Source: Rhodospirillaceae bacterium
Lineage (GTDB): Bacteria > Pseudomonadota > Alphaproteobacteria > UBA2966
Direction: 5' to 3'
Assembly (NCBI GenBank): GCA_002690215.1
Contig: NZDS01000102.1
Location: forward strand, 1-33,243
DNA: 33,243 nt
Shown here in pieces: positions 2,761 through 22,531 of the stretch. How positions within the stretch are numbered: position 1 is the stretch's first letter; every line of letters begins with the position of its first letter. The position numbers and the translations under genes were made by a program. A model generated the notes under the pieces. The model saw only the letters and a program-made list of their open reading frames with translations. It did not search any database and was not told the origin of the DNA.

Positions 2761-3978
2761 ATGGTTCGTTTAGCAGATATGCCGAGAAGTTCAGGCGATC
2801 ACTTGGCCGCCCTGGTCTGTCCGAGCTACGACACCGCGCCTTGGGTGACCGGCCCGCCGTTGAACCAGCGGCGCGTCGCCATCATCTCGACGGCCGGCCT
2901 GCAGGTGCGCGGTGACCGGCCGTTCGGGCTGGGCGCCGACGACTATCGGGTGATCCCGGGCAACACGCCCGGCGCCGATTTGATCATGAGCCACGTCTCG
3001 ACCAACTTCGATCGTTCGGGCTTTCAGCAGGACCTCAACATCGCCTTCCCCATCGACCGCTTGCGCGAGATGGCGGCCGACGGCGAAATCGGCTCGGTGG
3101 CCGATTTCCACTATTCCTTCATGGGCGCCACCGATCCGAACCTTTACGAGGGCCCGGCCCGGCGCCTGGCGGACTTGCTCAAGAAGGACAACGTCGACGC
3201 CGCTTTGCTGGTACCCATATGACCCTTCTGCACGCGCGCCGTGGGCGGGCTGGCACACTATCTCGAAGACGAAGGCGTGGCGACGACCCAGATCAGCCTG
3301 ATCCGCGAACACTCGGAAGCCATGAAACCACCGCGGGCGCTGTGGGTGCCGTTTGAGCTCGGCCGGCCGCTAGGTGCGCCGAGCGACGCGGCCTTCCAGC
3401 GCCGGGTGCTGACGGCAACGCTGGGGCTGCTGGAAGCCGATTCAGGTCCGGTCCTGGTCGATCATCCGGAAGAGGCGCCCAAGGTTCATGCCGATGAAAC
3501 CGAAGGCTGGGTCTGCCCCATCAACCTGCCGGCACCCGAGGCCGCCGACGCGGACGATCTCGGTGCCGCCATGCTGACCGAGGTGAACCAGATGACGCCC
3601 TGGTACGACCTCGGACTGCGCCAGAACGAACGCACCACGGTGGGCGCCAGCGGCCTGGAGATCGAGGACGCGGCGCGCTACGTGGCCTCATTCCTTGCTT
3701 CGGAACCCGACCCCAGCCCCAACTCCGAATTCGGCCCGGTCGACATGCTCAAGCTGGCCACCGAGGACATCAAGGCGTTCTATTTCGAGGCCGCGCAGGC
3801 GCAGCCGGGCAAAGCCACCAGCGCCGAGATGAACGATTGGTTCTGGGGCGAGACCGCTGCCGCCAAGGTCTACTACGCGTTGCGCCAGGAACTGGCCGAG
3901 AGCGAGGACAAGGGCCTCAAGATCTTCGCCAACATGCTGCTCATTCCGCGTTCGCAAGCGCACCGGATCGCGAGCTGA
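2761..3978 (+). CDS. GrdB/PrdB-family selenoprotein with in-frame UGA (Sec154)
   Basis: Two consecutive open stretches in the same frame, 2761-3219 and 3223-3978, are separated only by TGA at 3220-3222. Read as selenocysteine, they give one 405-residue protein with a UPFC motif (Sec154, Cys157) at the end of a beta-strand (ALLVPI) and just before a helix (TRAVGGLAHYLE). This is the layout of the redox site in the selenoprotein B family of glycine/sarcosine/betaine and D-proline reductases, which normally reads UxxC. tRNA-Sec and selD immediately upstream support UGA recoding. Substrate is unknown: classical GrdB/PrdB act in anaerobic Stickland fermentation with partner subunits not present here, so this is probably a distinct branch. 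The start ATG at 2761 has only a weak ribosome site; ATG 2779 is an alternative. A pipeline without Sec support would split this gene in two. Confidence 0.88.
3229..3255 (+). promoter_or_regulatory. Candidate bacterial SECIS hairpin after the UGA
   Basis: Beginning 6 nt after the UGA, a hairpin can form. An outer UGC/GCA stem (3229-3231 with 3253-3255) and an inner GCGCGCC/GGCGGGC stem (3234-3240 with 3244-3250, one G-G mismatch) close a GUG loop at 3241-3243. The loop starts 18 nt after the UGA and has G first and U second, which fits what is known of bacterial SECIS elements bound by SelB. The high local GC means such a stem could arise by chance; the fold was done by eye. Confidence 0.5.
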
Positions 3979-3982
3979 GAAG

Positions 3983-4339
3983 ATGCCCAAACCTCGCACC
4001 TGGGACGACATACCCGCGGAGACCGTGAACCCGGGGCACTCGCGCCAGGCCTTTCGCGGCGACAATGTCATGGTGGTGCGCAACGTCGCCGACCCCGGCG
4101 TCGGCGTCGAGATGCACAGCCACCCCAACGAACAGCTCGTTTACATCGTTCGCGGCCAGCTCGAGATGCACTGCCTGGGCGAGGTCCACATCCTAGGTCC
4201 GGGCAGCCTCTACCACATCCCCGGCGGCGTGGCTCACGGTGGCGCCCCGGTAGGCGACGAGTCTTGCGAGATCATCGATATCTTCTCGCCCGTGCGTGAG
4301 GATTTCAGCCACCTGGTGGAATACCAAGACGAAGACTGA
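3983..4339 (+). CDS. Small cupin-domain protein
   Basis: This 118-residue single-domain cupin has motif 1 with metal-ligand candidates His45, His47 and Glu50 (HSHPNEQ) and motif 2 with His85 (PGGVAHGG). Such mini-cupins are cytoplasmic metal-binding barrels that act as isomerases, dioxygenases, lyases or sensors. The gene begins 4 nt after the selenoprotein stop and is followed within 15 nt by a dehydrogenase, so it is almost certainly part of the same operon and may process the same metabolite. No exact function can be assigned from sequence. Confidence 0.85.
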   Translation: MPKPRTWDDIPAETVNPGHSRQAFRGDNVMVVRNVADPGVGVEMHSHPNEQLVYIVRGQLEMHCLGEVHILGPGSLYHIPGGVAHGGAPVGDESCEIIDIFSPVREDFSHLVEYQDED

Positions 4340-4354
4340 ACGGGACCAAGCGCC

Positions 4355-5236
4355 TTGAAAACCGGCTTCATCGGACTCGGCATAATGGGCGCACCCATGG
4401 CCGGACATCTTCTCGATGCCGGGCAGGAGCTTTGGCTCCACGACCTGGCGCCGCTGCCGACCGAGCTCCTCGACAAAGGCGCCACGGTCTGTGACAGCAA
4501 CCGCGAAGTGGCAACGGACAGCGACGTCATCATCGTCATGGTGCCGGACACACCGGACGTCGAGGCCGTGCTGTTCGGACCGGCGGGCCTGGCCGAAGGA
4601 CTGACGCCGGGCAAGACCGTGATCGACATGAGCACGATCTCGCCCACCGCCACGCGGCGCTTTGCCGAGCGTATCAACGAACTCGGCTGCGACTACCTCG
4701 ATGCGCCGGTATCAGGCGGCCCCGTCGGTGCCGTCAACGCCGCACTGACCATCATGGTCGGCGGGCCGGCCCGGGCCCTGGAGCGCGCCCGGCCGCTGTT
4801 CGAGATCATGGGCAAGACCATCACCCACATCGGTGAGAACAACGGCGCCGGCCAAGTTTGCAAGGCGGCCAATCAGATCATCGTCGGCATCACCGTCGAA
4901 GCCGTGGCCGAAGCCCTGGTCTTCGCTGCCAAGGCGGGCGCCGATCCGGCAACCGTGCGAGCGGCGCTGCTGGGCGGCGCGGCCGGCTCGCCGATTCTGG
5001 AATTGCATGGCCAGCGTATGTTGGAGCGCAACTTCGAGCCCGGATTTCGCACCGAATTGCAGCAAAAGGACCTGGAAATTGCGCTGCAGACGGCCCGCGA
5101 GCTGGGCATCAGCCTGCCCGCCACGGCCAATGCCCAGCAGGTCTTCAATGGCGGCTCCGCCGCCGACGCCAAGGCCGACCACTCGGCGGTGGTCAAAGTC
5201 ATCGAGCGCCTGGCCGATCACGACCTGACGAAATGA
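4355..5236 (+). CDS. NAD(P)-dependent beta-hydroxyacid dehydrogenase (HIBADH family), copy 1
   Basis: The 293-residue protein has the Rossmann motif GFIGLGIMG at residues 4-12, the substrate-binding motif DAPVSGG at 116-122 and the conserved catalytic Lys170 in GAGQVCKAANQ. Members oxidise or reduce 3-hydroxy acids such as 3-hydroxyisobutyrate, tartronate semialdehyde, L-threonate or 2-hydroxymethylglutarate. The start is a TTG at 4355, chosen because the nucleotide-binding motif needs to begin right there; CGGGA lies about 10 nt upstream. Its stop overlaps the start of the pdxA2-like gene by 4 nt (ATGA), implying translational coupling. Together with the PdxA2-like neighbour this recalls L-threonate/D-erythronate pathways, but no DUF1537 kinase or aldolase is present, so the substrate stays open. 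Confidence 0.9.
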   Translation: MKTGFIGLGIMGAPMAGHLLDAGQELWLHDLAPLPTELLDKGATVCDSNREVATDSDVIIVMVPDTPDVEAVLFGPAGLAEGLTPGKTVIDMSTISPTATRRFAERINELGCDYLDAPVSGGPVGAVNAALTIMVGGPARALERARPLFEIMGKTITHIGENNGAGQVCKAANQIIVGITVEAVAEALVFAAKAGADPATVRAALLGGAAGSPILELHGQRMLERNFEPGFRTELQQKDLEIALQTARELGISLPATANAQQVFNGGSAADAKADHSAVVKVIERLADHDLTK

Positions 5237-6189
5237 GCGAGCCGACGCTGGCGCTGCTGCACGGCGACCGCAACGGCATCGGGCCGGAGATCATGGCCCG
5301 GCTGCTGGCCGAAGGCTGCCAGGGCGCGCAGCTCGTTTGCCTGGGCGATCCCCAGGTCTTCGCCGAGGGCCAGGCGGTGGCGGGCTGCGCTGTCGACATT
5401 GCCTCGTTAGCGACACTCGAAGCGTTGCCCGCGGCGACGACCGAGCCCGGTCAGGCCACATCGGCCTCTGGCAGCGAGATGCTGGCAGCGCTCGAGCGCG
5501 CCGTCGAGCTGGCCCGGAGCGGCCGGATCGACGGCATCGTCTTCGCGCCGCTGAACAAGCAGGCCCTGCATCTCGGCGGCCTGGCCCATGAGGACGAAGG
5601 CCGGTTGCTGGCCCAGCTCTTCGGGGCCGAACGGGTGGGCGAGATCAATGTGCTCGAAGAACTATGGACAGCCCGGGTGACCTCGCACGTGGCATTGAAG
5701 GACGTCGCCGGGCTGATCGACACGGCCAGCATTCTCGACACCATCGTTTTCATCGATGAAGCGCTGAAAGCCGCCGGCGTCGCCCGGCCGCGCCTGGCGG
5801 TCGCCGCCCTTAATCCCCACGCTGGCGACGGCGGCAACTTCGGGCGCGAGGAGATCGAGGTCATTGCCCCGGCCGTCGAACGAGCCCGGGCCCGGGACAT
5901 CGAGGCCAGCGGCCCCTTGCCTGCCGACACCGTCTTCGTGCGCGCCCGGTCGGGCCAGTTCGATGCCGTGGTCACCATGTTCCATGATCAAGGCCAAATC
6001 GCCATGAAGTTAATAGGCTTCGAGCGTGGCGTCACCCTGATCGGCGGCCTGCCCGTGCCGGTCACGACACCGGCCCACGGTACGGCCTACGACATCGTCG
6101 GCCAGGGCAGGGCCAATCCGGCGGCGCTAATAGAGGCGTTCGATTTGTGCCGCCGCATGGCGACGGCCAGCAGGGAGAGCGAAGCGTGA
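5233..6189 (+). CDS. pdxA2: PdxA2-like 4-hydroxythreonine-4-phosphate dehydrogenase family protein
   Basis: This 318-residue enzyme belongs to the PdxA metal-dependent, NAD(P)-linked beta-decarboxylating dehydrogenases. Candidate metal ligands are His152 (TSHVALK), His196 (ALNPHAGDGG) and His251 (MFHDQGQIAMK). The APLNKQALH motif at 105-113 resembles the PdxA2 branch, which oxidises 4-phospho-D-threonate or 4-phospho-D-erythronate in acid-sugar catabolism instead of making pyridoxal phosphate. An in-frame upstream extension overlaps the preceding dehydrogenase and is rejected in favour of the ATG at 5233, which overlaps the previous stop. The usual DUF1537 kinase partner is not in the window, so either it is encoded elsewhere or the substrate differs. 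Confidence 0.88.
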   Translation: MSEPTLALLHGDRNGIGPEIMARLLAEGCQGAQLVCLGDPQVFAEGQAVAGCAVDIASLATLEALPAATTEPGQATSASGSEMLAALERAVELARSGRIDGIVFAPLNKQALHLGGLAHEDEGRLLAQLFGAERVGEINVLEELWTARVTSHVALKDVAGLIDTASILDTIVFIDEALKAAGVARPRLAVAALNPHAGDGGNFGREEIEVIAPAVERARARDIEASGPLPADTVFVRARSGQFDAVVTMFHDQGQIAMKLIGFERGVTLIGGLPVPVTTPAHGTAYDIVGQGRANPAALIEAFDLCRRMATASRESEA

Positions 6190-14809: not shown

Positions 14810-14905
14810 GCCAGGACGGGGCGGACCGGCGGGAACCAAAGCATTGATTCCGAGGCGCTTTGCTGTCACGCTAAGTACTTGGAAACACAAACTTCCCGGG
14901 GGGAA

Positions 14906-15628
14906 ATGGCAGGGCGAGGAGATATCCAAAAATTTCGCTGGTCGTACGGGCGGCTGGGGTGGCTGGTGACCGTTTGGCAGAACTTGCTATCGACCATCAG
15001 CAATCATCCGCTGTCCGGAATTTTGGCCGCGTTCGTGGCAGGCATACTCTTTTGGGGCGCCTTCAATTGGAGTTTGGAAGCGACCAGCACCGAGACCTTT
15101 TGCATATCCTGTCATGTCATGGAGGAGAATGTTTACAGGGAGTACCGAACGTCGGCCCATTTCACCAATCGCACCGGTGTTCGGGCGTCGTGCCCCGACT
15201 GCCACGTGCCCAAGGAATGGATTCACAAAGTCATCCGCAAAATTGGCGCGACCAACGAATTGTTTCACTGGATGCTGGGATCGATCAGCACACCGGAGGA
15301 GTTCAACGCCAAGCAGTTGCAGTTGGCGGGATATGTTTGGGACAATATGGCAGCCACCGATTCGCGTGAGTGTCGGAACTGCCATGGCATCGAATACATG
15401 AACCGCAAGGTGCAGGATGTCCAGGCGCGAGTCATGCACGAGTTGGCGGTCAAGTGGGGCACCACTTGCATCGAATGCCACCAGGGCATCGTCCACACGC
15501 TGCCCCAGGGCTTCGACAAGGAGGCGGTGATGGACACACTGCATGACCGGATGGAAAAGGAAAAAGTGGATTGCCGATCCTGTCACAAAGACATGGTGGC
15601 ACCGTCCAAGGACGACGGTTGGGATTGA
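14906..15628 (+). CDS. NapC/NirT/TorC-family multiheme c-type cytochrome (pentaheme)
   Basis: The 240-residue protein has one N-terminal membrane anchor (residues about 36-54) followed by five CxxCH heme sites at 66-70, 96-100, 156-160, 188-192 and 223-227. The first four match the NapC/NirT tetraheme quinol dehydrogenase. The fifth, near the C-terminus, is an addition that recalls TorC/DorC, although the full TorC mono-heme domain is not present. It should take electrons from quinol and pass them to periplasmic partners, here probably the diheme cytochrome and the NapA-like enzyme just downstream. The ATG at 14906 follows GGGGGG closely; a TTG at 14879 in frame is possible. Confidence 0.9.
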   Translation: MAGRGDIQKFRWSYGRLGWLVTVWQNLLSTISNHPLSGILAAFVAGILFWGAFNWSLEATSTETFCISCHVMEENVYREYRTSAHFTNRTGVRASCPDCHVPKEWIHKVIRKIGATNELFHWMLGSISTPEEFNAKQLQLAGYVWDNMAATDSRECRNCHGIEYMNRKVQDVQARVMHELAVKWGTTCIECHQGIVHTLPQGFDKEAVMDTLHDRMEKEKVDCRSCHKDMVAPSKDDGWD

Positions 15629-15644
15629 CGCTAGGGAGGTAGCA

Positions 15645-16301
15645 ATGTTCGCATTGAGGTTATTGTCCGGCAGCCTAGCCGGCATGGCGTTGGCCGTGCT
15701 CAGCTACGCCAGCCAGGCGGAGACGGCGTCTCCATCGACGCTGAAATTGGGCAAGGAACTGTTCAACGAGAATTGCGAGGTCTGCCATCAGGCCGACGCC
15801 ATCGGATCGCCGGGTGTGGCGCCTTCGCTCACCAATCAGGAACTTCTGAGCATCACCACCGACAAGTTCTTTGAAGCCACGATCCGTGATGGGCGCGGCG
15901 ATACGGGCATGCCGCCATTTGCCCATTTGGGCCGCAAGAAAGTCCGCGCCATCGTCGCCTTTTTGCGCTTCCACGCAGAGCAACCGAACCGGGCGAATGA
16001 GGTGGACGCGCAACCCGACGCCCATGGCGATCCCCGTCTCGGAAAACAATGGTACGACTACATCTGCTCAACCTGCCACGGGGTAAGCGGGGACGGATAC
16101 GAGGCCGGTGGTACCGGTACGGCCATTGGGTTGCCGGGCTTTTTGAACAAGGTCTCTGACGGCTTCATCCGTGAAACCATCAAGAAGGGCCGATCCAATA
16201 CCCGCATGTTGCCGTTCCAAGGGCCCGCCGGATTGGCCAACCTTTCCGACCAGGAGATCGACGACATCATCGTCTATCTGCGCGGTCTGGGTAAGAAGTG
16301 A
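15645..16301 (+). CDS. Periplasmic diheme cytochrome c
   Basis: The 218-residue protein has a signal peptide (cleavage near residue 25) and two class I cytochrome c domains in tandem. Heme sites are CEVCH (44-48) and CSTCH (141-145), with axial Met candidates near residues 89 and 188. It takes the position that napB holds in standard nap operons but is not NapB-like in sequence, so it is probably the electron donor or acceptor of the NapA-like enzyme. It starts at ATG 15645 behind GGGAGG and lies 16 nt after the NapC-like gene. The cytochrome at 24673-25395 is of the same architecture. Confidence 0.92.
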   Translation: MFALRLLSGSLAGMALAVLSYASQAETASPSTLKLGKELFNENCEVCHQADAIGSPGVAPSLTNQELLSITTDKFFEATIRDGRGDTGMPPFAHLGRKKVRAIVAFLRFHAEQPNRANEVDAQPDAHGDPRLGKQWYDYICSTCHGVSGDGYEAGGTGTAIGLPGFLNKVSDGFIRETIKKGRSNTRMLPFQGPAGLANLSDQEIDDIIVYLRGLGKK

Positions 16302-16316
16302 AGAGGTGTCGGAAAA

Positions 16317-19028
16317 ATGAAACGCAACAAAAGATATTTGTCGCGCCGGGAATTGCTCAAGACCAGCGCCTTTGTCACCGCCTCCGCCTCCGCCGTGGGC
16401 GCCGGTTTCATGGTCGGTGCCAACCCGGAGCTTGAAATTGCTTCCGCCGAAGCCGCCGAATCCGAGGAAGATCGCAGCACTGCGATTGCCCAATGCCCTT
16501 ACTGCGGTGTCGGCTGCGGCACCATCATCCAGGTCGAAAAAGGCAAGATCGTCTCGATGCGGCCAGACAAGGACCATCCGACGAATTTCGGCCTGCAGTG
16601 CATCAAGGGTTTGACGGCGGCCGAGCCGATGTATGTCGACCGCATGGAAGGTGATTCCTATGTGCGCAAGGACGTCTGGGCCGAATGGAAAAAAAGCGGC
16701 CACGGCGACCTCGAGTTCGTTTCCCAGACCAAGGGCTCGTTCGACGAAGAGCACTTCGTTCGTGTGCCCTACCACGATGCCTCCGAAATGGTCGCGCACA
16801 AGATCGCGCACCTCGTCAAGACTCACGGCGGCAACTCCATCGCGCTCTATGGCTCGGGCCAACTCACCATGGAGGGGCAGTATCTCGAAAACCTGTTCCT
16901 GAAGGGGATCATGGGCTCGAACACCATCGAGGCCAACGCCCGCATGTGCATGACCTCGGCGGTGACCGGGTATTTCGCCACGCTGGGCTCGGATACGCCG
17001 CCGCTGGCGTATGAAGACATCGAGCTTTGCGACATGATCATGCACTTCGGGCACAACGCCCGCGAATCGCACCCCATCATTTTCTGGCGTGCCGCCGACT
17101 ATAAGCGGAAGACGAATATTCCTGCCGTCGTCGTCGACCCGCGTCGCACCGGAACCCTGACGGGCTACGAAGACATCAATCCCGACAACACCGTGCACGT
17201 TCCCATTCTGAACGGCGACATCAGCTTTCTCAACGCCATCGCCCACGTGCTGTTGAAGGACCACGAAGACGTCATCGACTGGGAGTTCCTCAAGAAGCAT
17301 GTCACGGGATGGCAGGAATACGTCGACGGCGTGCGCAACGATTACAGCCCCGAACAGGTGCAGGATCGCATGGGTGGGCCCAATCACGACGTCTCGCCCG
17401 CCCTCATTCGCCGCGTCGCCGGCATGTTTGCCGATGCCACCCGCAAGCGCCTGGCCCGTGCCAAGGGCAAGCAGAAAGGTGGCTATGGCGGCGTCATAAT
17501 CATGTGGGGCATCGGCTACAACCAGCACATCCACGGCCAGTACAACGTCATCTCCATCATCAACCTGCTGACCCTGACCGGCAATCTGGCCAAGTCGGGC
17601 TGCGGCCCCTTCTCGATGACCGGACAGCCCAACGCCATGGGTGAGCGCTTCACCGGTGGCCTGACGGGGCGCCTGCCGTTCAACAAGCCGCTGTCGGACA
17701 AGGCCCATCGTCTGCATATGGCCAAGCAATGGCGAGTGCCGGAGGCGAACCTGGTCAAGGCCATGAACTCCAAAAACCCGGGCTATGCCGTGGGCATGAT
17801 GGAGCGCGCGCTCAAGGACGAGGTCAAGGCCATGTTCCTGGTCTACGCCACGCACATCGATTTGCCCGACCAGTACAATCTGGTGCGCCCGGCGCTGGCC
17901 AAGACCTTCAACGTGGTGCAGGAAATCTATCGACACGCCCCCAACAATCTTTATGCCGACGTGATCTTTCCAGCGGCCACCTGGGGCGAGGTATCGGGCG
18001 TCTACATCAGCTCGGAACGCCGCATCAATCTCTGTGAGAAAGCCGCCGAACCGCCCAAGGGATGCCTGCCCGATTTGGATATGGTCATCGACAAGGCCAA
18101 AGAGATCGGCACGCTGCTCGGCCTCGATATGGCCAAGGTCCTGCCCTACAAGCGAACGAAGGACGGCTTTTACGATACCGAAGAGATCTTCCGCGACGTG
18201 ATCCGCGCCTCCGCCGGCACGGATACCGATCTCACCGGCATTCTGGAAGTCGAGAAACTGGACAAGATATCGCCCTATGAGCAACTCAAGGAGCTGCGAG
18301 GCATCCAGTGGCCGGCGCCAAGTTACGAAACCGCCCAACAAGGAGGAACGAAGCGCCGCTTCATGATGCAGGAAGGGGCATGGGAGAACCGGCCCTACGG
18401 CTACTTCCGCACCCAGGACGGCAAGGTGCACATGAAGCTCTGCCGCCAGGATTATTCCGATCGCCAGGCAGTGACCGAGAAATTGATGCAGTTCGGTGTC
18501 GAAGAAGAGCTCTACACCATCGACCACATCGATCTCATGAAGGAGGCTCGGGACAAGGGCCTCACACCGGACCTGCCCGACGAGGATTTTCGCGGCACGC
18601 GCTGGAACAAGGTGCCCAAGGACAAATATCCCTATTGGATGGGGCTCGGTGTGGTCTACGAGCACTTCCATACCGCCAAATCCAACCGCAGCCCCACCAC
18701 GCGCCGACTGGTGCCGGAAATGTACGTCGAGATGCACGAGGAAGACGCCAAGGACCTGGGTATCAAGGACGGCGACAAGGTCCGGGTCGTCACCCGCCGC
18801 GGATCGCTCGAGGCACGCGCCCAGGTCGGCACCAACAGTCTGGTAAAGCCGGCACGCAACAATGTGCCGCGCGGCTACATGTTCGGGCCCTGGAATTTGT
18901 CGGTGGCGGACAGCGCCGATCCGAAGAAGAACAAGTGGCTCGCCAACGGCATTACCAGCCGCGTTTGGGATCCCGTGTCCGGGCAGGTGGACTTCAAGAA
19001 GTGCGCCTGTCGAATCGAAAAGATCTGA
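16317..19028 (+). CDS. NapA-like periplasmic molybdopterin oxidoreductase, TAT-exported
   Basis: A 903-residue DMSO-reductase-superfamily catalytic subunit. The N-terminus has a twin-arginine signal (SRRELLK at 9-15). Next comes a [4Fe-4S] site, Cys60, Cys63, Cys67 and Cys95, followed by Lys98 (CIKG) that relays electrons to the cofactor. Cys211 in ARMCMTSAV sits where NapA and FdhA carry the molybdenum ligand, so the metal ligand is Cys. The C-terminal molydopterin-binding domain (GDKVRVVTRRG, near 820) is intact. It resembles NapA more than formate dehydrogenase, but napB and napD neighbours are missing and it may act on something other than nitrate. It starts 15 nt after the diheme cytochrome gene, in one operon with cytochromes and ferredoxins. 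Confidence 0.85.
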   Translation: MKRNKRYLSRRELLKTSAFVTASASAVGAGFMVGANPELEIASAEAAESEEDRSTAIAQCPYCGVGCGTIIQVEKGKIVSMRPDKDHPTNFGLQCIKGLTAAEPMYVDRMEGDSYVRKDVWAEWKKSGHGDLEFVSQTKGSFDEEHFVRVPYHDASEMVAHKIAHLVKTHGGNSIALYGSGQLTMEGQYLENLFLKGIMGSNTIEANARMCMTSAVTGYFATLGSDTPPLAYEDIELCDMIMHFGHNARESHPIIFWRAADYKRKTNIPAVVVDPRRTGTLTGYEDINPDNTVHVPILNGDISFLNAIAHVLLKDHEDVIDWEFLKKHVTGWQEYVDGVRNDYSPEQVQDRMGGPNHDVSPALIRRVAGMFADATRKRLARAKGKQKGGYGGVIIMWGIGYNQHIHGQYNVISIINLLTLTGNLAKSGCGPFSMTGQPNAMGERFTGGLTGRLPFNKPLSDKAHRLHMAKQWRVPEANLVKAMNSKNPGYAVGMMERALKDEVKAMFLVYATHIDLPDQYNLVRPALAKTFNVVQEIYRHAPNNLYADVIFPAATWGEVSGVYISSERRINLCEKAAEPPKGCLPDLDMVIDKAKEIGTLLGLDMAKVLPYKRTKDGFYDTEEIFRDVIRASAGTDTDLTGILEVEKLDKISPYEQLKELRGIQWPAPSYETAQQGGTKRRFMMQEGAWENRPYGYFRTQDGKVHMKLCRQDYSDRQAVTEKLMQFGVEEELYTIDHIDLMKEARDKGLTPDLPDEDFRGTRWNKVPKDKYPYWMGLGVVYEHFHTAKSNRSPTTRRLVPEMYVEMHEEDAKDLGIKDGDKVRVVTRRGSLEARAQVGTNSLVKPARNNVPRGYMFGPWNLSVADSADPKKNKWLANGITSRVWDPVSGQVDFKKCACRIEKI

Positions 19029-19101
19029 GGGGTGCGGCGAAGTTGATCAGCCGGCGGGGTGACCGCTTCGGTCAACCGCCTGAATTCTTGGCCGGCGAGT
19101 G

Positions 19102-19674
19102 ATGCGACGCAGAACTTTCATGAAGGTGGTGGGTGCGGGTGCCGTGGCGGCGCTGGCACCGGGCGACGCCGGGGCGGCGCAATACCGGCCTTCGCTCAGG
19201 TATCTGCGGCCGCCGGGTGCGTTATCCGAGAAGGAATTTCTGGCCCGTTGCATCCGTTGCGGCCAATGCGGCGAAACCTGCCCAAACCGTTGCATCAAGT
19301 ATTTCGGCTTCGAGAACGGCTGGACTTCGGCCGAGACCCCATACCTCATCCCGCGCGACAAAGCCTGCATCCTTTGCATGAAATGCGGCGAGGCGTGCCC
19401 GACCGGCGCGCTCAAGCCCATCGCGCGCGAAGCAACGGCCATCATGGCCGAGGTCGACATGGGCCAGGCCCGGGTCGACGAAAGCTTGTGCCTGTCCTTC
19501 CAAGGCAAGACCTGCGGTGTCTGTTACCGGGCCTGTCCGCTCCAGGATGTTGCCATCACCGTGGGCCACCTCGAGCAGCCTCACGTCACCGACAAATGCG
19601 TTGGCTGTGGGCTTTGCGAACGCTCCTGCATTCAAATGCCGCAGGCGATCCGCGTCATTCCCGATCATGGATGA
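19102..19674 (+). CDS. NapG-like TAT-exported polyferredoxin, copy 1
   Basis: The 190-residue protein has a twin-arginine-type leader (RRRTFMKVVG) and four [4Fe-4S] motifs: CIRCGQCGETCP, CILCMKCGEACP, a CGVCYRACP set with an upstream Cys, and CVGCGLCERSC. This is the layout of NapG, the periplasmic ferredoxin that works with NapH in quinol oxidation. GTG 19099 and ATG 19102 are both possible starts; neither has a strong ribosome site. Its end overlaps the napH-like start by 8 nt, so the two are translationally coupled. Confidence 0.87.
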   Translation: MRRRTFMKVVGAGAVAALAPGDAGAAQYRPSLRYLRPPGALSEKEFLARCIRCGQCGETCPNRCIKYFGFENGWTSAETPYLIPRDKACILCMKCGEACPTGALKPIAREATAIMAEVDMGQARVDESLCLSFQGKTCGVCYRACPLQDVAITVGHLEQPHVTDKCVGCGLCERSCIQMPQAIRVIPDHG

Positions 19675-20704
19675 GGCCCGAGGAGCGGCGCTTCCGAGCC
19701 TGCCGCGCCGCCAGTCCGCCGTCTTCTGGCGCCATCTGAACAAACTGCGCTGGGTCACGCTAAGCGTCGTTTTGGCGATGCTCGTGCTGCTGCCCTTCCT
19801 GCACCTCTATCAGACCTATGTCGCAGCCCATGCTTACGACCTGTTGTTGCCAGCGGAAAAGCGCCTCTACGATGCAATGGAGTTGCTGACCGCGCCCTTC
19901 GTCAACGATCCCGCCGAGGATCTCGATGCCATCAAGGGAACGACCTGGTCGGCGACTTTTTGGAACCTCAGACTGTCCGACCCCTTGGCTGCCGTCGGGC
20001 AGATGGCCGCCGGCCTCGGACTGCATTGGCCCTTCATTGTCACGGCGCTGATCCCCATCGCCGTGACTGCCGTCTTTGGGCGCATCTTTTGCGGCTGGAT
20101 ATGTCCGGCCACTCTTCTCTATGAACTGAACAGCAATTTTGCCGCCTGGCTGCGCTGGGCCGGCCTCGATCTCGGCAACCGCCGCTTCGACCTGCGGCTC
20201 AAGTATGCCGTGTTGGCATTGGGATTGGTGCTGTCGGCTGCCACCGGCATCGTGCTTGTCGCGACTATCTATCCGCCGGCCATCATCGGCCGTGAAATCT
20301 ACTATGTGATCGCTCTCAGTGGATTCGGCGCCGGTACAACGTTTTTCCTGGCTACCATGCTCTTTGACCTGCTGGTGGCACGCCGTGGATTTTGCCGCTA
20401 TCTCTGCCCGGGGGGAGCACTATATGCCTTGCTCGGGCGCTATCGCCTGGTCCGCATCCACCGCATCGTCGAGAGCTGCAATGATTGCGCGAAGTGCAAC
20501 GTCGTTTGCGAGTTTGGCCTTGATCCCATGGCCGATGGCTTCGGTCAGGAGTGCAACAACTGCACGGCATGCATCGCCATCTGCCCAACGGATGCTCTGA
20601 CCTTCACACTTCGGCCGACCGACATTGCCGCCCAGGGGCCAGGTCACCTGGGCCGCAAACACCGGCGCGAGCCGGAAGCGGAGCACGGCGGAACGGTCCC
20701 ATGA
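19667..20704 (+). CDS. NapH-like membrane iron-sulfur protein
   Basis: The 345-residue protein has several membrane segments, two CxxxCP motifs facing the membrane interface (FCGWICP and FCRYLCPGG) and a C-terminal double ferredoxin domain (CNDCAKCNVVC and CNNCTACIAICP). These are the features of the NapH/CcoG/NosR family that hands quinol electrons to periplasmic ferredoxins. A 50-residue in-frame extension lies over the upstream ferredoxin gene and is rejected in favour of the ATG at 19667. It is somewhat longer than typical NapH (about 290). It lies between two NapG-like genes, with an ATGA overlap to the second. Confidence 0.88.
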   Translation: MDEARGAALPSLPRRQSAVFWRHLNKLRWVTLSVVLAMLVLLPFLHLYQTYVAAHAYDLLLPAEKRLYDAMELLTAPFVNDPAEDLDAIKGTTWSATFWNLRLSDPLAAVGQMAAGLGLHWPFIVTALIPIAVTAVFGRIFCGWICPATLLYELNSNFAAWLRWAGLDLGNRRFDLRLKYAVLALGLVLSAATGIVLVATIYPPAIIGREIYYVIALSGFGAGTTFFLATMLFDLLVARRGFCRYLCPGGALYALLGRYRLVRIHRIVESCNDCAKCNVVCEFGLDPMADGFGQECNNCTACIAICPTDALTFTLRPTDIAAQGPGHLGRKHRREPEAEHGGTVP

Positions 20705-21309
20705 AGCGCCGCCGGCTTCTCAAGGATATCGTTGCCGGTGTCGCGATCGCCTCCGCCGGCGCCGTTCCTTACGCCGTGTCGCCCCTGCTGGCGCCCGGGC
20801 AGGCGGCAGCGAAACGCAACTACCTGCGGCCGCCGGGTGCGCTCGAGGACGACGCCGCGTTCGTTGCGGCCTGCATCGGTTGCGGCCTCTGCGGCGAGGT
20901 CTGCCCGCCGCGCTGCATACGATTTCACCGCCGCGACGGTGGCGCCAAGGTCAATACCCCCTTCATCGATGCTGCAGAGAAAGCTTGTACCTTGTGCGGC
21001 AAATGCATGGAGTTCTGTCCCACCACGGCGCTCGGTATCGTGCCGCGGGATCAGGTCGACATGGGCGTCGCCGAAATCGACCGTGATGCCTGCTATCCCT
21101 GGGTGGATCGGGGCGTCTGCGGCGCCTGCGTCAGTATCTGTCCGCTGGGGAAAAGCGCTATTGGTTACAAGATGTGGAATCAATACCAACCGATCGTCAG
21201 GCAGGGTTGCGTCGGCTGCGGCTTATGCGTCGAGGTCTGCCCGCATCCCAGCAAGCCGATTTGGATTGTCCAGCGCCGCGCGGCCAAGACCGCGCCTGAC
21301 CGGGGGTAA
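20701..21309 (+). CDS. NapG-like TAT-exported polyferredoxin, copy 2
   Basis: The 202-residue paralogue of copy 1 starts MKRRRLLKDIV, a twin-arginine-like leader, and shares the YLRPPGAL linker after it. It has four [4Fe-4S] motifs: CIGCGLCGEVCP, CTLCGKCMEFCP, CGACVSICP with an upstream Cys, and CVGCGLCVEVCP. The start overlaps the napH-like stop by 4 nt. It probably accepts electrons from the membrane protein in the periplasm. Two NapG-like genes around one napH-like gene is not the standard napGH order. Confidence 0.88.
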   Translation: MKRRRLLKDIVAGVAIASAGAVPYAVSPLLAPGQAAAKRNYLRPPGALEDDAAFVAACIGCGLCGEVCPPRCIRFHRRDGGAKVNTPFIDAAEKACTLCGKCMEFCPTTALGIVPRDQVDMGVAEIDRDACYPWVDRGVCGACVSICPLGKSAIGYKMWNQYQPIVRQGCVGCGLCVEVCPHPSKPIWIVQRRAAKTAPDRG

Positions 21310-21312
21310 GGG

Positions 21313-21918
21313 ATGCCGAGAGTCCGGATTATTGTACTGGTGATTTTGACCGGCTGGCTGTTGCCGGTGGAATTCGCCGCGGCGCATCACGTGCTGGGCC
21401 GGCCCAGCTACAGTCTCAGCGAAGATTCCAACACACCTCCCGCGGTCCAGGTGGAAGTAGAGGTCGGTGAATTCTCAGTCACCTACATGGTCTTCCCCGA
21501 CGTGCCGCGGCCCGGCCGTCCCGGCCGGCTCAATCTCTACCTGAGGCAGGGCGACGGCGGCTCGCCATTCGACGGCAAGGTTACCTTTAAGGTCCGCGAC
21601 GATTCGTGGTTGTCCTGGCTGGGTTATCGGTCACACGAGTCGGTTCTCGGCGTGCAATCACCGGACGACAACGTTTTTCGTCAGGGCGTCCATTTCGAAG
21701 CGGCCGGCGAATACATCGTCAGTGTCGAGTTCGAAGCCGGCGGCCGGCCGTACGCGATTGATTTCCCCCTGCGGGTCGGCGAGCCGTCTCGCATCGGGCC
21801 TATCAGCATCGCCGTTGCGGTCCTGGTCATTGCGCTTGCCGGCTTCACCGTTATCCAGCGCCGGCGTTCGCTGACCGGCAAGATCCGTGGCGCCCACAAC
21901 GAAAAGCAGCCGAAGTGA
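21313..21918 (+). CDS. Small periplasmic membrane-anchored protein, FixH/YtkA-like shape
   Basis: The 201-residue protein has a signal sequence (residues 1-24, AAA before HHVLG), a periplasmic beta-rich domain of about 130 residues and one C-terminal membrane segment (about 162-180) with a basic RRR cytoplasmic tail. The mature protein would begin with His-His, a possible metal-binding N-terminus. The shape recalls FixH/YtkA-like accessory proteins of cytochrome systems, but no named family can be assigned confidently. It lies 3 nt after the second NapG-like gene in the middle of the redox operon, so it is probably a component or assembly factor of that system. Confidence 0.75.
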   Translation: MPRVRIIVLVILTGWLLPVEFAAAHHVLGRPSYSLSEDSNTPPAVQVEVEVGEFSVTYMVFPDVPRPGRPGRLNLYLRQGDGGSPFDGKVTFKVRDDSWLSWLGYRSHESVLGVQSPDDNVFRQGVHFEAAGEYIVSVEFEAGGRPYAIDFPLRVGEPSRIGPISIAVAVLVIALAGFTVIQRRRSLTGKIRGAHNEKQPK

Positions 21919-21934
21919 GCGGGGTGGCCTCGCC

Positions 21935-22531
21935 ATGAAACGCCGCGAGGTATTGAAGCTAGGGGCGCGAAAGGCGGCCGAAATCGCCTTGGAGGTGGCC
22001 GGTCAGGCGGCAACGCTACGCGCCGACGCCTGGATCAGGCCCCCGTTTGCCATTGATGAGCCCCAATTCCTGGCGCACTGCACGCGTTGCGACAAATGCC
22101 TCGAAGCGTGCAGCTACGATGTTCTGTTCAAGCTGTCGCCCGACCACGGCATCGCGGCAGCCGGAACACCGGCCATGAACCTGCTGCATCGGGGTTGCCG
22201 TATGTGCCAGGACTGGCCCTGCGTGAGCGTGTGCGAGCCGGCGGCGCTGGTGCTCCCGGACGCAGCAGAAGGCACACCGGTCATCTCCCCAAAACTGGCC
22301 GTCGCGACCATCGATAGCCGGTCGTGCCTGCCCTACCTGGGACCCGAGTGCGGCGCTTGCGCCGATTCCTGCCCGATCGAGGGGGCGCTGGAATGGCAAG
22401 GCGGGCTTAAACCGGTCGTCAATCAGGACCTCTGCACCGGCTGTGCGCTGTGCCGTGAAGCCTGCATCGTCGATCCGAAGGCGGTCGGCATCGCGGTCTT
22501 CATCGCCGACGGGACGACGACGGAGGCCTGA
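21935..22531 (+). CDS. Third polyferredoxin (NapF/NapG-like)
   Basis: The 198-residue protein has four cysteine clusters: [33 protein letters not shown] with an upstream Cys, and [11 protein letters not shown]. The first two differ from copies 1 and 2 and lack the usual CP ending. The N-terminus has KRREVLKLG but no long hydrophobic stretch, so export by TAT is uncertain and it may be cytoplasmic like NapF. ATG 21935 is preferred over an upstream in-frame start that overlaps the previous gene. Its stop overlaps the ATG of the next gene by 1 nt (TGATG). Confidence 0.82.

Follow-up and report, generated by a model that had tools for sequence, protein, structure and literature searches.

A two-domain, stand-alone PrdB-like selenoprotein encoded next to tRNA-Sec and selD in an alphaproteobacterium

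The gene at positions 2761–3978 (+) of the window, i.e. the whole 33,243-nt stretch of DNA analysed here, belongs, judging by its homologues, to a real and widespread selenoprotein family that is two-domain, stand-alone and PrdB-like and is not a classical proline or glycine reductase. It may represent a class of stand-alone selenoenzymes in which a PrdB-type Sec domain is joined to a structurally new helical domain that takes the place of the pyruvoyl partner, and which would carry out an undescribed reductive reaction in Alpha- and Betaproteobacteria, Desulfobacterota, Chloroflexota, Nitrospinota and others, many of these carriers not being amino-acid fermenters. To this reading as a whole we assign a probability of roughly 0.45.

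The in-frame TGA and its SECIS hairpin

A TGA at 3220–3222 (+) interrupts one continuous frame that ends at a TGA stop codon at 3976–3978. Decoded as Sec, as the codons of the homologues indicate, it turns the frame 2761–3978 into a single protein of 405 aa with a UPFC (UxxC) motif at residues 154–157. Both this interruption and the Sec site had been proposed in a preliminary description, together with membership in the GrdB/PrdB family of selenoproteins, and all of this is borne out by re-reading of the sequence, by the homologues with their conserved TGA, by the SECIS element and by homology to PrdB.

A class-wide search of 289 genomes returned full-length relatives in 23, the genome of origin counted, and a scan of named genomes contributed a further 80 loci, the best 80 of 466 relatives. 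The latter come from Alphaproteobacteria, Desulfobacterota/Geobacter, Chloroflexota (Dehalococcoidia, SAR202), Betaproteobacteria, Nitrospinota and one Gemmatimonadota MAG. Full-length homologues are 42–61% identical. Across the 104 loci read, which include these best 80 of 466 and two pairs that each represent one and the same contig, site 154 is TGA in 102, mostly within UPxCT, and Cys (TGC/TGT) in two. Mean pairwise identity is 0.62 after the TGA (residues 155–230) vs 0.50 before it (residues 1–153). Three loci (L042, L093 and L127) carry one additional stop each, possibly errors. The preliminary description had advised looking for full-length homologues with Cys at position 154, which the two Cys forms are, and had named two ways in which the selenoprotein might dissolve, namely homologues that all end at the TGA and a frameshift or sequencing error at 3220; instead, 102 of the 104 loci read through and the downstream frame is conserved in homologues.

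In the two Cys-form genomes (G137 and G143), tRNA-Sec scores only 38.9 and 46.9 bits, vs 66–78 bits in nearly all Sec-form genomes, and SelB above the cut-off was not found. One genome (G264) has a Sec-form gene, on a 6-kb contig, but searches of it returned no SelB and no strong tRNA-Sec, a mismatch that is perhaps a binning error.

The SECIS element is a 17-nt hairpin at 3234–3250 (+), with a stem formed by positions 15–20 and 26–31 counted from the T of the UGA and a loop around GUG. Over 30 diverse sequences, 95% of the stem cells pair, 11 cells are changed on both sides, and the pair 16–30 occurs as CG, UA, AU and GC; none of 500 shuffles was as good, and slid registers reached only 26–57%. 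In 22 GC-poor genes, moreover, the stem codons end in G or C in 88% of cases vs a mean of 52% expected (sd 7.6), a bias that none of 360 other windows matched and that leaves the loop codon untouched. Folding of the region from this gene as a single sequence gave an unremarkable energy (z −0.28); it is the comparative evidence that supports the hairpin, not single-sequence folding. Comparison of the homologues shows that the gene 2761–3978 encodes a SECIS-directed selenoprotein.

Relation to PrdB and GrdB, and the C-terminal domain

The best NCBIfam match is the PrdB model TIGR04483, whose cut-off of 300 bits is not reached (96.2 bits), and the selenoprotein B models TIGR01917, NF040794, NF040795 and TIGR01918 all stay below theirs (29–45 bits vs cut-offs of 65–800; for TIGR01917, 29 vs 602). 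Pfam GRDB (PF07355) is just over its gathering cut-off of 22 with 25.8 bits, and is matched by 57 of 57 aligned members (E up to 1). An hhalign comparison with Terrisporobacter PrdB gave an E-value of 3e-31 over ~209 columns. Together with AlphaFold, these matches delimit a PrdB/GrdB-homologous alpha/beta domain at residues 33–232 (2857–3456, +). The AlphaFold2 model of the whole selenoprotein (pLDDT 92) has two domains, the PrdB-like one mostly above 90, and places Sec154 and Cys157 where, in the PrdB-type domain, a strand is predicted to end and a helix to begin; R63, S80, D84, H117, C157, T158 and E169, among others, are invariant near the active site in the family alignment. In a midpoint-rooted FastTree phylogeny of the shared domain, the subfamily forms one clade (support 0.94) apart from two PrdB proteins, four paralogues from the same genome and two annotated Cys relatives, the last of which make up a clade of their own. 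A search of a plasmid collection returned partial PrdB-like matches only.

With PrdB (TIGR04483), the protein shares ~200 homologous residues and a UxxC at the equivalent place, but PrdB has 241 aa, a UGTCHR motif and a PrdA partner, whereas the present protein has ~405 aa, UPxCT, a helical C-terminal domain and no PrdA; nor does it answer to the definition of the D-proline reductase subunit as a ~26-kDa single domain with UxxCH. Its resemblance to the selenoprotein B group GrdB/GrdF/GrdH (PF07355, TIGR01917/01918) lies in the C-terminal end of the profile around UxxC, while the N-terminal ~270 positions of GrdB are missing, GrdE was not found and the scores are far under the NCBIfam cut-offs. 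Proteins named ‘Glycine/sarcosine/betaine reductase selenoprotein B family protein’ by PGAP (WP_207415257, WP_035710215) are likewise stand-alone, PrdB-like and alphaproteobacterial; unlike the present protein, these Cys forms have ~300 aa, a CPxCH motif and no C-terminal domain, and fall outside the subfamily clade.

The all-helical C-terminal domain spans residues 258–405 (3532–3975, +; ~148 aa) and is predicted by AlphaFold2 to consist of seven helices (pLDDT 94). In the window protein it matches no Pfam family; three of 57 members have stray sub-threshold matches. Foldseek searches of the PDB found nothing at E ≤ 0.001 for either the domain (best E 3.5) or the whole model, and the viral library was likewise empty; for a predicted structure, this silence does not establish that the fold is new. 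By sequence, no solved structure was found for the selenoprotein family and no convincing one for a PrdB; one PDB sequence match to the C-terminal domain (E 8.5e-05, 31 residues) was discarded as chance, no stretch passing alone. Among the 289 class genomes, the domain occurs in exactly the 23 with the selenoprotein and always C-terminal of it; a lone detached match (G281) sits at a contig edge and was interpreted as the remaining part of a gene that is split there. At the level of sequence searches, this distribution shows the domain to be unique to this selenoprotein family.

The same genome holds four more PrdB-like genes of 300–337 aa with one in-frame TGA each (L052, 12127–13089, +; L053, 11311–12321, −; L054, 3726–4625, −; L055, 11205–12137, −), making five in total; their motif is UPxCHQ, with UPLDHQ in L052. 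It also contains four UGSC-family loci, again with one in-frame TGA each (L154–L157; contigs C164 twice, C82 and C136), and because of these it appears selenoprotein-rich for an alphaproteobacterium.

Selenium genes, partners and neighbours

The tRNA-Sec gene selC (1505–1600, +; ARAGORN, and Rfam RF01852 with 73.5 bits) and the selenophosphate synthetase gene selD (1633–2679, +; AIRS/AIRS_C) lie upstream of the selenoprotein gene, as had been described. With selB (429 bits) and selA (560 bits) on another contig, the genome (245 contigs, 92% complete, 7% contamination) encodes tRNA-Sec, SelD, SelA and SelB. By eye, positions 1–1366 of the window hold a RepA-like helicase fragment (−) and a tyrosine recombinase represented by its C-terminal end (+), directly before tRNA-Sec, and may be the remnant of a mobile element.

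Linkage to selenium genes recurs in the family. selA, selB or selD is close by in 21 of the 104 loci read, selD being 2–141 bp away in most of those, and in the class sample ten of the 22 loci with the Sec form are linked (chance ~1e-14 by a rough estimate that takes no account of kinship); counted by families, the figure is six of about fourteen (chance ~1e-9). Across families, the sel genes (selA/selB/selD/tRNA-Sec) are the only recurrent neighbours among the 104 loci. Neither this family-wide tie to the Sec machinery nor the existence of a distinct subfamily with a C-terminal domain of its own had been anticipated in the preliminary description. Such linkage is compatible with a role in selenium handling, and joint inheritance of the Sec trait accounts for it equally well; clusters of sel genes with formate dehydrogenase have been reported (PMC5029168).

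Neither this genome nor any of the 22 others searched has the pyruvoyl partner family PF09338 (PrdA/GrdE), while the same search matched two Clostridia plasmid records as a positive control. The absence of reductase partners claimed earlier is thus confirmed for PrdA/GrdE; the GrdA family PF04723 gave no match in the 23 genomes, in a search that had no positive control. On the Peptoclostridium acidaminophilum plasmid (L150, 4645–5685), prdB has an unannotated upstream gap with a PF09338 match at record 258999–260039, and therefore a prdA appears to have been omitted from the distributed annotation.

Downstream follow a cupin gene (3983–4339, +), starting 4 nt after the selenoprotein gene, and genes for NAD-dependent dehydrogenases, one tartronate-semialdehyde-reductase-like (4355–5236, +; TIGR01505 above cut-off) and one PdxA-like (5233–6189, +; TIGR00557 with 267 bits, cut-off 290). 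The preliminary description was right about their position, but they are not a conserved context: homologues of the cupin or the PdxA-like gene were found beside none of the other 103 family members, and dehydrogenases of the window kind occur near other members at kilobase distances only. Being unconserved as neighbours, these genes are uninformative on the reaction, and the operon was dropped as a functional clue.

The scan for neighbour families covered adjacent genes, and the same-strand neighbours proved diverse: beta clamp, MurJ, MFS, transglycosylase, TetR, CoA-transferase, 2OG oxygenases and GST. In one alphaproteobacterial clade, the selenoprotein gene stands between those for a CoA-transferase III and a D-2-hydroxyacid dehydrogenase (L030, L078, L079, L089 and L104; partially in the clade mates L039, L081, L084 and L119). 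A TauD/TfdA-type 2-oxoglutarate dioxygenase gene lies 9 bp downstream of one Cys form (L051, in G143), and 2OG oxygenases are also near the Sec forms L031, L074 and L093. Both the clade arrangement and the 2OG-Fe oxygenases were too scattered to be taken as operon partners. Elsewhere in the window, a periplasmic respiratory cluster at 14879–22528 (+), comprising a NapC/NirT cytochrome, a c-type cytochrome, a 903-aa molybdopterin oxidoreductase and Fe-S proteins, suggests anaerobic or alternative respiration.

Proposed function and significance

Since neither a PrdA/GrdE partner nor a constant operon partner is found, the selenoprotein is most likely an enzyme that works as a single chain or as a homo-oligomer, as far as genome content can tell. 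With no pyruvoyl partner and an added domain, a self-contained PrdB-like selenoenzyme is the simplest reading, to which we would give about an even chance. Both domains would form the substrate site, the C-terminal one in the role of clostridial PrdA/GrdE. The selenolate of Sec154 would attack a small oxidised or activated substrate, reductively breaking a C–X, X–X or O–O bond, and Cys157 would resolve the Se-adduct or selenenic form into a selenenylsulfide that cellular dithiols of the thioredoxin type could re-reduce. Glycine and proline are less likely substrates than a compound that is not an amino acid. The catalytic step is proposed by analogy with GrdB/PrdB, in which the pyruvoyl partner holds the substrate as a Schiff base for attack by Sec. 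The glycine and proline reductase complexes are summarised elsewhere (PMC13188914).

Without such a partner, the protein could well carry out another kind of chemistry, e.g. peroxide or disulfide reduction. A thiol/peroxide-type oxidoreductase that uses UxxC on peroxides, disulfides or electrophiles, with no C–X cleavage, would agree with the many carriers that are non-clostridial environmental bacteria, with varied neighbours (GST, TauD, pyridine-nucleotide oxidoreductases) in place of a constant pathway, and with UxxC being the motif of thiol-redox selenoproteins (PMC1088965 Table 3). However, the domain is PrdB-like rather than thioredoxin-like, and the polar invariants R63, D84, H117 and E169 suggest a specific substrate, so that we see this as a serious but clearly weaker candidate, with perhaps one chance in a few. 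Somewhat less probable still is a role in selenium metabolism rather than carbon metabolism, e.g. in reducing or carrying selenium for SelD. It draws on the sel linkage described above and on the four PrdB-like paralogues of the genome, which have no sel gene in the stretches read. Against it, Cys forms exist in genomes without Sec decoding, most loci, including those of Desulfobacterota and Chloroflexota, are unlinked within the stretches read, and linkage of a selenoprotein gene to sel genes is also expected from joint transfer. Moreover, Sec-decoding genomes such as that of Escherichia coli do without this protein.

An ordinary component of D-proline or glycine reductase would explain the PrdB homology, yet this is very improbable given the distance from the TIGR04483 and TIGR01917 cut-offs, the lack of the PrdA/GrdE family in 23 genomes, UxxCT instead of UxxCH and the additional domain. 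Most improbable of all is that the TGA is an ordinary stop and that the frame behind it is a gene in its own right or what is left of a decayed one: a split at this point is what gene callers are expected to produce, but the downstream frame is in phase and conserved in the 102 Sec-form loci, the two Cys forms continue straight past the site, the SECIS stem covaries and the C-terminal domain never occurs separately. The self-contained selenoenzyme is our preferred reading.

PrdB-like UxxC selenoproteins have been met before. They were the third most abundant known selenoprotein family in the Sargasso Sea, with 42 genes (PMC1088965), and numbered 235 in the GOS data (PMC2398784); Anaeromyxobacter and Geobacter, too, have been credited with ‘proline reductase’ selenoproteins (PMC1794560). 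The earlier suggestion of an undescribed reaction is plausible from sequence; ‘undescribed’ goes too far for the proteins themselves, marine forms outside the classical setting having been known since 2005/2008 (PMC1088965, PMC2398784). Those marine proteins, which are abundant in the sea, share the UxxC and the PrdB-likeness; the surveys, however, file all of them as proline reductase, and in their accessible parts the two-domain subfamily is not separated and the missing partners are not noted. No description of the subfamily or its extra domain was found in the accessible portion of the open-access literature.

PrdB-like selenoproteins are among the commonest in ocean metagenomes, yet they are named proline reductase. 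With no pyruvoyl partner and a private domain whose fold has no PDB match, at least one large PrdB-like subfamily can hardly be proline reductase as known. Since no curated NCBIfam model is reached at its cut-off, gene callers probably truncate these proteins at the UGA and lose the C-terminal domain. The family offers a defined target for a new selenium-dependent reaction: one gene, no partners, and Cys forms in organisms that do not decode Sec.
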